Made by a program: the position numbers and the translations under genes. Shown here in pieces: positions 48,246 to 51,801 of a stretch of DNA of 54,971 bases; positions within the stretch are counted from its first letter, which is position 1, and the number at the start of each line of letters is the position of its first letter. The notes beneath the pieces were generated by a model. That model made no database searches. It saw nothing but the letters and a program-made list of their open reading frames with translations, and was not told the origin of the DNA. This DNA comes from Methanobacteriota archaeon (GTDB lineage: Archaea; Thermoplasmatota; Poseidoniia; Poseidoniales; Thalassarchaeaceae): contig PBMR01000002.1 of the NCBI GenBank assembly GCA_002722735.1, forward strand, positions 1 to 54,971, read 5' to 3'.

Positions 48246-49346
48246 ATGGATTCTCGGGGGTTGCACCACTTCGCCTCGTTCGTCCGAGAGTTGAACGGGG
48301 AGTGCACGCTGCTGAGGATTTTCGGTGACAATCTCGTGGCCGGTTCTCGTCTGGGTGACCTGGCCTGCTGGAGCATAGGCAGTGGAACGGAGATTTGGAG
48401 AATTCTAGTCGAGGGGCCTTGCTCTGACTGTGACCTCGAAGGAGATCTGCTGTGCGTCTCGGAGTCCGACAAACTCCATGCAATTGACATCAGAACGGGT
48501 GAGTTTCTCTGGAATTGCGAGCTTGAGGGCTCGAGCGACTTTGTTAGAATCTCAGGGGGAGTCTGGGCTACCTCATCCGTCTACACTATCGAGATTCAAG
48601 ATTATACCGAGGCTTCCGTTTGGCTCTTTGACAAAGAAGGCCAAGTAGGGGGGAAGTGGGAAATCGAAGGCAAGGCATGGTTCCTTGCTGCAGAATCGGA
48701 TCTCGTCACCGTCGGACTCGGTCGGCCGAAGTGCGGATATGCCAACGTGGCGATTGGCGAGGGTCCCGTGTACTTCTCTGTGGATAATAAAAGCCCAATA
48801 ACCACAGGAGCGGTCTCTGACGAAGGCTCCCGGTATCTCGGCCACAGCGACGGGGGAATAAGCGAGATTACAGGTGAAGGAAGCTCCTCGCACAAAGTTG
48901 AGTCTGGCTCTGTGACATCAATAACAATAGAAGAGGACTGGTTAGCTGGATTCGAGTCGGGTAGTGTGTTATCCGGCCCCTCACTAGGGAGTTGGTCCAC
49001 TGAGGTCGGGGGATCGGTGGATGCGGTTTGCCTAGGACCATCACTGCGTGGTGAAGGGTGCGTCTGGTCATCATCTTGGTCTGAGAAAGCCAAACTTTCC
49101 CTCCTCGACAAGATTAGTGGTGATATCCAGTTTGAGGTCAGCCACGGTTCGCGTATCGGGAAGATTTGTTCAGCGGGGAAGACAATCACCCTCGGTGACT
49201 CCGAGGGAAATATATTCCTAATCGAAGAAGGGGTTCTTCGACGGCGTTTCGAACAAGTGGAAGAGGGTTTTGTAGAGGGTAAAAAAAGGTCACTGATAAG
49301 ACGTAGAATAAACAGTCTCCGAAAAGATGATTTGCAGTGGAAATAA
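48246..49346 (+). CDS. PQQ/WD-like beta-propeller protein
   Basis: 366 residues with recurring blades of the PQQ-like type: LLRIFGDNLVAGSRLGDLACWSIGSGTEIWRI, LLCVSESDKLHAIDIRTGEFLWNCEL, and ISGDIQFEVSHGSRIGKICSAGKTITLGDSEGNIFLIEEG. The blades have W and GD/T-G positions at regular spacing but no catalytic motif. It lacks a signal peptide and membrane helix and is probably cytoplasmic. The C-terminus is basic (KKRSLIRRRINSLRKDD). It could be a scaffold for protein interactions. It is the last gene before the 850-bp structured gap and is on the same strand as the carboxypeptidase. Confidence 0.8.
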   Translation: MDSRGLHHFASFVRELNGECTLLRIFGDNLVAGSRLGDLACWSIGSGTEIWRILVEGPCSDCDLEGDLLCVSESDKLHAIDIRTGEFLWNCELEGSSDFVRISGGVWATSSVYTIEIQDYTEASVWLFDKEGQVGGKWEIEGKAWFLAAESDLVTVGLGRPKCGYANVAIGEGPVYFSVDNKSPITTGAVSDEGSRYLGHSDGGISEITGEGSSSHKVESGSVTSITIEEDWLAGFESGSVLSGPSLGSWSTEVGGSVDAVCLGPSLRGEGCVWSSSWSEKAKLSLLDKISGDIQFEVSHGSRIGKICSAGKTITLGDSEGNIFLIEEGVLRRRFEQVEEGFVEGKKRSLIRRRINSLRKDDLQWK

Positions 49347-49389
49347 CCTCTTTGAACCTCTATTTCCGTTGTATTGCGGTAATATTCTA

Positions 49390-49400
49390 GAAATGTTTAT
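49390..49400 (+). promoter_or_regulatory. Candidate promoter of the structured intergenic transcript
   Basis: GAAATGTTTAT combines a purine-rich BRE-like stretch with a TTTAT core. Initiation some 20-25 bp downstream would start a transcript near 49420. It lies only 44 bp after the stop of the propeller gene and, if real, serves no protein gene on this strand. The motif is short and could be chance. Confidence 0.35.
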
Positions 49401-49590
49401 GAGCCGGTCACCGCCCTGTGGACTTTGCCGCTCCGGGGGAGTGGTGCGAGGGCGCTTCGGCGTGACTCGCGGGCCACAATAACCGAGCCCCGAAGCCGGG
49501 GCGGTGGAACCGAGATTCGAAAGGAGATCGGGGATAGAGCCGGAGCGTCTGTGGGCGTGAAGGCGGAGCAGCGACGAGATCGGAGAAACT

Positions 49591-49607
49591 GGACGCAAGG
49601 AAGGGGA
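49591..49607 (+). repeat. 17-bp purine-rich repeat, copy 1 of 3
   Basis: GGACGCAAGGAAGGGGA occurs three times with no mismatch inside the structured gap (49591, 49708, 49915). Upstream of each copy is a variant of GGAGAGAACTGG, so the true repeat unit is longer. Confidence 0.85.
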
Positions 49608-49707
49608 GAGCGAGAGAGAAGCTGCGGAGATACACGCGCGTAGGGGGAATGAAAAAGTCCCTGGGTCGCGGGAGTGGGGAACGAAGTGGAGAGAACCGGA
49701 GAGAACT

Positions 49708-49724
49708 GGACGCAAGGAAGGGGA
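49708..49724 (+). repeat. 17-bp purine-rich repeat, copy 2 of 3
   Basis: Identical to copy 1. It is followed by further AAGGAAGGGG units to about 49740, so this copy has a small tandem expansion of its tail. Confidence 0.85.
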
Positions 49725-49914
49725 AGGAAGGGGAAGGAAGCGGAGAGAAACACGAAGGCAACAAGGGCGGGGAGACCCGTGGAGGAGCCTGTATCGAACC
49801 GTGGAAAGTAATGGTGAGAGCCATGACGGGAAGCGGAGAACGCGAAGAGGGGGGCGACTCCCTTGGAGAGAGAGTATGAGACGTGGAGAGAACTGGAGAG
49901 GACTGGACAGAACC

Positions 49915-49931
49915 GGACGCAAGGAAGGGGA
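49915..49931 (+). repeat. 17-bp purine-rich repeat, copy 3 of 3
   Basis: Identical to copies 1 and 2, 117 and 207 bp apart between successive starts. The preceding sequence GGACAGAACC is a variant of the element found before the other copies. Confidence 0.85.
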
Positions 49932-50145
49932 AGGAAAGAAGGCGAAGGGGGAGTAAACGTCGCGTCAAAGGGACCCTAGTGGTCCCAGAGACGTCTACCC
50001 GGGAATCCCGGGCCTTAGGGCCCGGGGGACACCCGGACCCTGCGGAGTTAACAGGGGGGGATGCTCCCCCATGTGCAGAACCCCCTGTTGCTCCCACCTG
50101 TACCCAAGGTACAAAGTTCGGCCCGTTGATTAGCGCTACAATGGT

Positions 50146-50178
50146 TGCGGAGCGTCTCGCTCCGCACGCTCACGTTTT
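50146..50178 (+). terminator. Hairpin with trailing T-run at the end of the structured gap
   Basis: TGCGGAGCG and CGCTCCGCA form a perfect 9-bp stem around a TCT loop (50146-50166). A TTTT run follows at 50175-50178. The stem is symmetrical, so it could also act on transcripts of the fumarase gene arriving from the other side. Confidence 0.5.
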
Positions 50179-50199
50179 GTGGTACTAGTGGAATTGCCG

Positions 50200-51801
50200 T
50201 CAAGCGTTCGGGCCCGTCATCCGATCGGCCTTGACCCATTCGTCGAATTGCTCTTCGGTCAGCATCTCGAGTTCGAGGGCGCTCTGTCTTAGGGTCAGGT
50301 GATTCTCATGAGCGTTCTTGGCTATCTTGGCAGCATTATCGTATCCGATATGAGGATTGAGTGCGGTGACGAGCATCAATGAGTTCTCGAGGTGCTCGGC
50401 AATCTTAGCCTCGTTGGCTATTAGTCCGGTTACGCACCTGTCCGCGAATGAGCGGCACGTGTCCGAGATGAGGCGAACACTGTGCAACAGGTTGTGGATC
50501 ATCATTGGTTTGAACACATTGAGTTCAAAGTTGCCCTGGCTACCACCGATAGAAATGGCGGTTTGATTGCCCATGACCTGGCAGCACACCATTGTCATCG
50601 CTTCGGACTGCGTCGGGTTCACCTTTCCAGGCATGATGCTCGACCCGGGCTCATTGGCAGGCAGTGCCAACTCTCCGAAGCCGCAGCGCGGCCCGGAGCC
50701 GAGCCATCTGATGTCATTTGCTATCTTCATCAGAGATGCGGCTAGGGTATTGAGCGCTCCAGATGCAGCAACTATCGCGTCGTGTGCGGCGAGCTGTGCG
50801 AACTTGTTCTCAGCGCTGATGAAGGGGAGATCGGTCTTCTCCGCTATTCTGTGCGCGACTTGGTCGGCGAAGTCAGGACTCGTATTCAGGCCCGTTCCCA
50901 CGGCTGTACCACCGAGGGCCAACTCGTAGAGATCGGTGAGGGCGTTCTCCGCCCTGATGACGTCGGCGTCCAGCATGGCGACGTAGGCGCTGAACTCCTG
51001 GCCCAAGGTCAGTGGAACCGCATCCATGAGATGAGTCCTGCCAATCTTGACGATTTTAGCGAACTCGTCGGACTTCTCTGCCAGTGCAGTTCGCAGGTAC
51101 CTCACTGCTGGTATCAACGTGTGATGAAGCTCCTCGGCTGCAGCGATGTGCATCGCCGTGGGAAATGTGTCGTTGCTAGACTGGGCTCGATTGACGTGGT
51201 CGTTGGGATGAACGGGCGATTTGCTGCCGAGCTTCCCCCCTGCCACCTCGATGGCTCTGTTAGCGATTACCTCGTTAGCATTCATATTGGTCTGTGTTCC
51301 CGAACCAGTCTGCCATATTCTCAGAGGAAAGTGCCCATCAAGAGATCCACAAATGACTTCGTCACAAGCAGTGATAATCATGTCACCAATCTCAGGTTCT
51401 AACCCTCCGAGGTCTACGTTGGTTTCCGCAGCAGCCTGCTTGAGGATTCCGAAGGCCCTAATCACGGAACGAGGCATGATGTCATCCCCGATGTCAAAAT
51501 TCATCAGAGATCGGGCGGTCTGGGCACCGTAGTACCTGTCAGCAGGGACTTCGACCTCGCCCATCGTGTCCTTCTCAATCCGGACTTTTCCTGGTTTGGA
51601 CTGTGCTTGCCTAGGCTCGGGCTCGGGGCTGGCTCTGCTGGACACCTTGCCTCCAGCAAGAGAGCCCTCAATCATCCTAGTTACCGTTGCCGAGCGTCCG
51701 CTCTCACGACCCTTGCCGACCCTCGCATCTAGTCTGCGTGCCAATTCCTCTGGTATGCTGATGGTGATAATCCTGCGATTACCAGCGCGGTGCTTCGCCA
51801 T
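50200..51801 (-). CDS. fumC: Class II fumarate hydratase with N-terminal ribbon-helix-helix domain
   Basis: 533 residues. Residues about 9-50 ([20 protein letters not shown] then [14 protein letters not shown]) match a ribbon-helix-helix (CopG/Arc) DNA-binding domain. A Pro/Glu/Gln-rich linker (about 51-72) leads into a full-length class II fumarase from [23 protein letters not shown] to the end. The fumarase signature [11 protein letters not shown] and the substrate-site stretches [31 protein letters not shown] and [17 protein letters not shown] are intact, so activity (fumarate + H2O to malate) is expected. No stop codon lies between the two parts. Normal FumC is about 460 residues, which the body alone provides. 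The ATG at 51801 sits in an AT-rich promoter and the mRNA is probably leaderless. Confidence 0.93.

Follow-up and report, generated by a model that had tools for sequence, protein, structure and literature searches.

What occupies a long interval between two converging genes in which no protein gene is evident? The question arises in a 54,971-nucleotide (nt) stretch of a Thalassarchaeaceae genome of the archaeal order Poseidoniales (assembly GCA_002722735.1, contig PBMR01000002.1, positions 1 to 54,971; hereafter the window; order described in PMC6461757). An open reading frame (ORF) on the + strand ends at 49346 and one on the − strand ends at 50200, confirming the convergent gap at 49347-50199 that a preliminary description of the sequence had singled out as a candidate novel long non-coding RNA (ncRNA) with a transcript of its own. 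Comparison with related genomes supports that proposal, through covariation and through a promoter at fixed spacing. It directly shows that an RNA fold specific to one strand is under selection and lies behind a conserved motif resembling a promoter; judged from sequence, the gap very probably contains a gene for a large structured ncRNA on the + strand, chromosomal and free-standing.

The comparison covers the window's family (f1, Thalassarchaeaceae/MGIIb; 123 genomes) and its sister family (f2; 121 genomes), which we take to be Poseidoniaceae, as the order has two families. The RNA interval was extracted from 43 loci, and covariation was counted in a 39-row alignment (A3). The consensus structure comprises 138 base pairs, with 92.7% of cells paired, a proportion that falls to 36–43% when partners are slid by one to three columns. 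Compensatory changes, a check that the preliminary description had named, were found in abundance: 86 of the 138 pairs have changed on both sides, against a mean of 49 in shuffled columns, and doubly changed cells number 451 against 133, none of 500 shuffles reaching the observed value for any of five measures. RNAalifold scores a 43-row alignment at −309; column-shuffled alignments reach only −128 to −154, and the reverse complement −256. Because the + strand folds better, the RNA is assigned to it. Mean pairwise identity is 72% over the whole RNA, 87% in its 5' 60 nt and 84% in its 3' 80 nt, and 46% in the stretch that follows. The PQQ-like protein encoded directly upstream is mostly only 30–50% identical between relatives and the window, compared with 72% for the RNA.

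Could the interval nevertheless be a rapidly evolving protein gene? The − strand does carry long open frames, the longest of 210–229 aa, but a pyrimidine-rich strand yields such frames by composition, and the longest frames on either strand shift and shrink between relatives (84–295 codons). Moreover, 631 of the 722 internal indels (87%) are not multiples of three. Because frames shift and most indels break them, the interval is not read as a protein gene, and we consider this alternative extremely improbable.

The TATA-like motif that had been pointed out at the left end of the gap is present (AGAAATGTTTATG, 49389-49401) and has the form of an archaeal B recognition element (BRE) followed by a TATA box. 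It lies exactly 34 nt from the RNA start motif CTTTGCC in 43 of 43 related gaps, in which the promoter element is 83% identical, vs 56% for the spacer behind it, and TTTA is invariant. Since this conserved promoter stands at a fixed spacing, a transcript of the RNA's own is supported. In archaeal promoters transcription starts about 26 nt from the centre of the TATA box; from this general spacing and the conserved position of the TATA box, we infer a start at about 49423-49427, at the foot of the first hairpin. The 3' end is approximate: the RNA probably reaches 50124 and may extend beyond it, for a length of ~680–700 nt here and 540–850 nt in relatives of the same family. Downstream of GCUCCCACCU, many relatives have T-rich stretches; the window has GTACCCAAGGTAC, GGCCC and a 9-bp hairpin. 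This hairpin, reported earlier with a T-run at the right end of the gap, exists, but it lies beyond the conserved RNA, its T-run is only TTTT, and no terminator was called at it by a promoter and terminator scan of bacterial type, which is ill-suited to archaea. It could serve both the RNA and the convergent fumarase gene as a terminator.

The same arrangement bears on a second alternative, namely that the structure either belongs to the PQQ-like gene, as a long 3' untranslated region or cis element, or regulates fumarase in antisense. In its favour, wherever the locus was checked the RNA comes directly after the PQQ-like gene in the same orientation, and fumarase is convergent. The conserved BRE/TATA element at its exact spacing nevertheless separates the PQQ-like gene from the RNA, the RNA ends before the fumarase stop codon, fumarase has lost its convergent position in two genomes (G149 and G196), and the size and branching of the RNA exceed those of usual cis elements. 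Both versions of this alternative are thus improbable.

The preliminary description had the gap packed with hairpins; the structure is there, but it was under-described, since the hairpins are parts of a single multi-domain RNA that has been conserved in much of the order. In the resulting model, transcription would proceed on the + strand from the BRE/TATA promoter of the RNA itself, a short way behind the PQQ-like gene, and the transcript would begin with two hairpins, P1 and P2, followed by a helix (GGG/CCC or GGGCC/GGCCC) closing a branched body. The body would consist of a conserved central domain, a varying set of GNRA-capped purine-loop modules and a strongly conserved 3' hairpin (Table 1).

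Table 1. Positions in the window of the RNA, its parts and the flanking genes
Feature	Positions	Strand	Basis or remark
PQQ-like beta-propeller gene, 366 aa	48246..49346	+	Pfam PQQ_2, E=1e-6; directly upstream of the RNA
Archaeal BRE and TATA box AGAAATGTTTATG, RNA promoter	49389..49401	+	34-nt spacing to CTTTGCC in 43/43 gaps
Conserved core of large ncRNA	49423..50101	+	DNA search in f1 genera, covariation (39 sequences), covariance models R1–R3
P1 hairpin GCCGCUCC-GGG-GGAGUGGU, 5' end	49427..49445	+	99% of cells paired
P2 hairpin, UUCG loop	49446..49470	+	6/9 pairs changed on both sides
GGGCC, 5' strand of possible closing helix	49471..49475	+	Invariant in 39 sequences
Hairpin AACCG-AGCCCC / GGGGC-GGU	49482..49505	+	Helices 5 and 6
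Hairpin, GAAA loop	49510..49531	+	Helices 7 and 8; all six pairs changed on both sides
Hairpin, UGUG loop	49539..49564	+	Helices 9 and 10
Module copy 1, C-U-GGA-C[GCAA]G-GAA-GG	49587..49607	+	GNRA hairpin, symmetric purine internal loop (loop pairing inferred)
Central domain, closed by GAUAC 49629-49633 / GUAUC 49791-49795	49629..49795	+	Helix 16, 96.8% paired
Module copy 2	49704..49724	+	Repeat listing and consensus structure
GAGA-loop hairpin (49767-49780) with conserved CGUGGAG flank	49757..49789	+	Helices 22–24
Insertion carrying module copy 3 (49911-49931)	49885..49978	+	Gap columns 687–770 of A3
8-bp hairpin CCCGGGCC-UUAG-GGCCCGGG	50007..50026	+	Helix 33; 5/8 pairs changed on both sides
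3' hairpin GCGGAGU...GCUCCCACC, conserved CUCCCCCAU loop	50041..50096	+	Helices 34 and 35, 97.7% and 87.7% paired; basis of model R1
GGCCC, possible 3' strand of closing helix with 49471-49475	50120..50124	+	Alternative partner
9-bp hairpin TGCGGAGCG-TCT-CGCTCCGCA, then TTTT	50146..50166	+	In some g1, g4 and g9 relatives; outside the conserved RNA
Fumarase gene, convergent neighbour	50200..51801	−	Pfam Lyase_1 3.5e-111, FumaraseC_C 2e-24

P1 covaries across both families (for example CUCU/AGAG and CUUC/GAAG), and in the GAGA-loop hairpin helix 24 is 99.5% paired, with three of its five pairs changed on both sides. For the closing helix, the computed consensus pairs GGG (from 49471) with CCC at 50038-50040. 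The pairing of GGGCC at 49471-49475 with GGCCC at 50120-50124 is a likely closing helix: 34 of 41 gaps offer such a 5-bp pairing within 45 nt, vs 20% in shuffled tails. Both partners have changed in concert in genus g3 (GGCCCC/GGGGCC) and locus L106 (GGGAC/GUCCC), but not in g5, g7 or L107. A pseudoknot between GGGGGAG of P1 and CUCCCCC in the loop of the 3' hairpin was considered and dropped, as changes in P1 (L020, L026, L034) are unmatched in the loop.

Several compositional features noted earlier are confirmed. The 17-nt repeat GGACGCAAGGAAGGGGA indeed occurs in three exact copies (at 49591, 49708 and 49915) and nowhere else in the window, and it corresponds to a hairpin module of the form C-Y-GGA-N[GNRA]N'-GAA-RR. 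The closing pair of the first module is C-G in 24 and G-C in 15 of the 39 sequences, with loops GCAA, GUAA, GAAA and similar. Copy number varies from one or two in most members of the genus to three in the window, five in L026 and six in L020; the insertion with the third copy measures ~95 nt, and the RNA of the window is ~100 nt longer than that of most genus members. The GNRA and UUCG tetraloops are likewise borne out, with six such hairpins with stems of at least 3 bp on the + strand (shuffles 2.5 ± 1.5; 14 of 300 reach six) and none on the − strand of the gap. So is the strong purine bias, which at 77% in 49560-49959 is higher than in any other 400-nt segment of the 55 kb (mean 51%, standard deviation 4%).

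How widespread is this RNA? In a search at the DNA level, 49 of 98 related genomes contain the gap, its main blocks being 49380-49860 and 49982-50101; the window's own genome gave only a 20-nt chance match, no second copy. The 43 extracted loci lie nearly all between the same two genes, a few contigs ending inside or lacking the fumarase end. A covariance model of P1 and P2 (R3, 59 nt; counts tallied by hand) matches 107 of the 123 f1 genomes, in all 11 genera, and 18 of the 121 f2 genomes, only in genera g15, g17 and g22, in each case at E≤4e-7. The separation from noise is sharp, the next match having an E-value of 0.015, and in other Thermoplasmatota outside the order R3 gives only scattered noise matches (E≥8e-4). 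A GTDB-wide pattern scan returned 58 matches, single-cell genomes among them; every title names an archaeon of marine group II, Euryarchaeota, Thermoplasmatota or Poseidoniales. Some misses are explained by incomplete genomes; three genomes of the same genus without the RNA are also without fumarase. Assemblies L046, L050, L051 and L052 break inside the RNA gene at contig ends, so metagenome-assembled genomes will often lack the gene or carry it in pieces.

Every positive locus examined that extends to the PQQ-like gene has the RNA behind it on the same strand, and f2 members have the 5' and 3' domains in the correct order, adjoining the PQQ-like gene. Genus g7 shows a local rearrangement (G149 and G196; L086 and L088) in which fumarase precedes the PQQ-like gene, both being on one strand, and the RNA is still found directly behind the PQQ-like gene. 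In f2 genera without the RNA, protein genes occupy the interval between the PQQ-like and fumarase genes where it is readable. ORFs in this interval in L098, L100–L103 and L111 include a ~310-aa protein with hydrophobic stretches, resembling a membrane protein.

Large size and modular repeats could also suggest a mobile or phage-derived RNA fixed at the locus, such as an intron or a prophage RNA of the ROOL or GOLLD type, and one orphan copy of the promoter with P1 and P2 lies on another contig of genome G018. This view is very improbable given a locus fixed in all 11 genera of f1 and in parts of f2, the lack of any match in a pattern scan of 2.9 million viral contigs (IMG/VR), the lack of an Rfam intron, GOLLD or ROOL match, and the absence of recombinase or prophage genes among the identified neighbours. 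The orphan copy (G018:C32; L094:2954-3055) is a partial second copy of the 5' end of the RNA. It combines AAAGGTTTATG, which is TATA-like, with a stem like that of P1 and 37 nt of P2 at 88–97% identity to the family; the sequence after it is unrelated. Its contig carries MoaA-like and Trm1-like genes (named by eye), and the contamination of G018 is 4%. No such copy was found in any other of the 244 genomes, and it was not adopted as a second family, being confined to one of them.

Some points weigh against an RNA gene at this locus. First, the single-sequence folding energy of the gap is ordinary, with z = −1.55 on the + strand and two of 20 shuffles equally good (z = −0.38 on the − strand); single-sequence folding alone does not make the gap exceptional, and the comparative evidence is decisive. 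Second, the consensus structure was derived from the same alignment that was used for counting, so that the covariation figures lean upward somewhat; the margin over shuffled and slid controls is large despite this. Third, no terminator call pins down the 3' end. Finally, several f2 genera have no detectable copy of the RNA, though they keep the PQQ-like gene. As these genera keep the gene without the RNA, the RNA is not essential throughout the order, nor is the PQQ-like protein an obligate partner.

Does the RNA belong to a known family? The preliminary description recognised none, and Rfam 15 (4227 families) agrees: nothing in the window reaches the gathering cut-off, matches in the gap at permissive thresholds are at chance level and far below it, and 18 relatives give no match at E≤1. 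A very divergent housekeeping RNA (signal recognition particle (SRP) RNA, RNase P RNA or a fragment of ribosomal RNA (rRNA)) would also be conserved, structured and chromosomal with a single locus per genome. However, RNase P RNA (RF00373; G000:C18:2003-2294, 234 bits) and archaeal SRP RNA (RF01857; G000:C9:65515-65827, 115 bits) are found elsewhere in the genome, and neither covariance model matches at the gap. Both are structured archaeal RNAs with one locus per genome, as is the gap RNA, but they are about half its length, show no similarity to it and lie on other contigs. A divergent housekeeping RNA is therefore extremely unlikely.

The large ornate RNAs OLE, GOLLD and ROOL offer a further comparison. 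OLE RNA, of ~580 nt (length and partners in PMC12286853), is likewise a large, elaborate chromosomal RNA of restricted lineage, but it is bacterial and the gap RNA archaeal; the OLE model of Rfam gives no match in the window or the 18 relatives, and no OLE-associated protein was identified here. GOLLD has a conserved 3' region with a more variable remainder (PMC12286853), as does the gap RNA, which resembles GOLLD and ROOL in being large and ornate. It differs from them in being archaeal and chromosomal, without a tRNA in the window and without a viral match. The GOLLD and ROOL models do not match the window or the 18 relatives, a tRNA search of the window found none, and there is no prophage gene among the identified neighbours, so that the phage or prophage setting near tRNAs does not apply. 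As the RNA failed every membership test run for a known family, its class is rated new, with Tan1 compared by description only.

Tan1 deserves separate consideration. In a 2016 Red Sea metatranscriptome, RNase P RNA, SRP RNA and an abundant 229-nt RNA, Tan1, are reported in marine group II (PMC5069720). The same study describes Tan1 as an ncRNA of Candidatus Thalassoarchaea, fifth in RNA-Seq, with a complex predicted structure and five homologues at 75–79% identity (PMC5069720). Like the gap RNA, then, it is a structured ncRNA of marine group II/Thalassoarchaea, and it is a real possibility, if not the expected outcome, that the gap RNA or its 5' third is Tan1, which would be compatible with an RNA gene in the gap. 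The 5' part of the gap RNA aligns to other genera over 217–228 nt at 73–77%, to be set beside the length and homologue identities given for Tan1. Conversely, 229 nt is far below 570–700 nt, and below the ~680–700 nt of the gap RNA, the two are compared by description only, and other such RNAs may exist. If they are the same, the transcript has been described before, and what is new is confined to its full length, its structure and its distribution. The literature searched on Poseidoniales ncRNA yielded nothing besides the Tan1 report, and no second paper linking Tan1 with marine group II.

What might such an RNA do? By analogy with OLE and GOLLD, the gap RNA may be expressed and act in trans, providing the scaffold on which a ribonucleoprotein or an RNA assembly is built; its GNRA modules would then serve as arms for docking or protein binding. 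We give this role slightly less than an even chance. It is favoured over a cis element because of the size and branching of the RNA, its conserved frame with variable modules, and the lack of a regulated downstream gene. The PQQ-like beta-propeller protein is a weakly supported candidate partner, suggested because the RNA stays behind its gene even in G149 and G196. We tentatively put forward a broader proposal, possible but short of probable, in which the RNA would represent an undescribed large ornate class ancestral to Poseidoniales and distinct from Tan1, an archaeal counterpart of OLE and GOLLD (scaffold or RNA-only assembly) with a fixed 5'/3' frame and changing GNRA modules. Marine group II is among the most abundant archaeal groups of the surface ocean, and we know of no cultured member. 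To our knowledge, the ncRNA classes usually known in archaea are, apart from rRNA, smaller than ~600–700 nt. The gap RNA would thus add a large conserved archaeal class without an Rfam match, varying by gain and loss of hairpin modules, and it is directly testable, with models, a promoter, a fixed locus and more than 100 homologues in hand.

The flanking genes have features of their own. An inverted repeat, GGAAATA...TATTTCC (49337-49380), spans the stop codon of the PQQ-like gene, is similar in relatives and is possibly that gene's own 3' end signal. Residues 1–80 of the fumarase ORF extend it at the N terminus and resemble a ribbon-helix-helix DNA-binding domain (RHH_1, 19.3 bits, below the 20.5 cut-off); this extension aligns in f1 and some f2 genera and is absent in others, where the match starts near residue 70. 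At the far left edge of the window, positions 1-133 are taken up by a tandem array with a 12/18-bp unit (CCTGTCCCTGGC).
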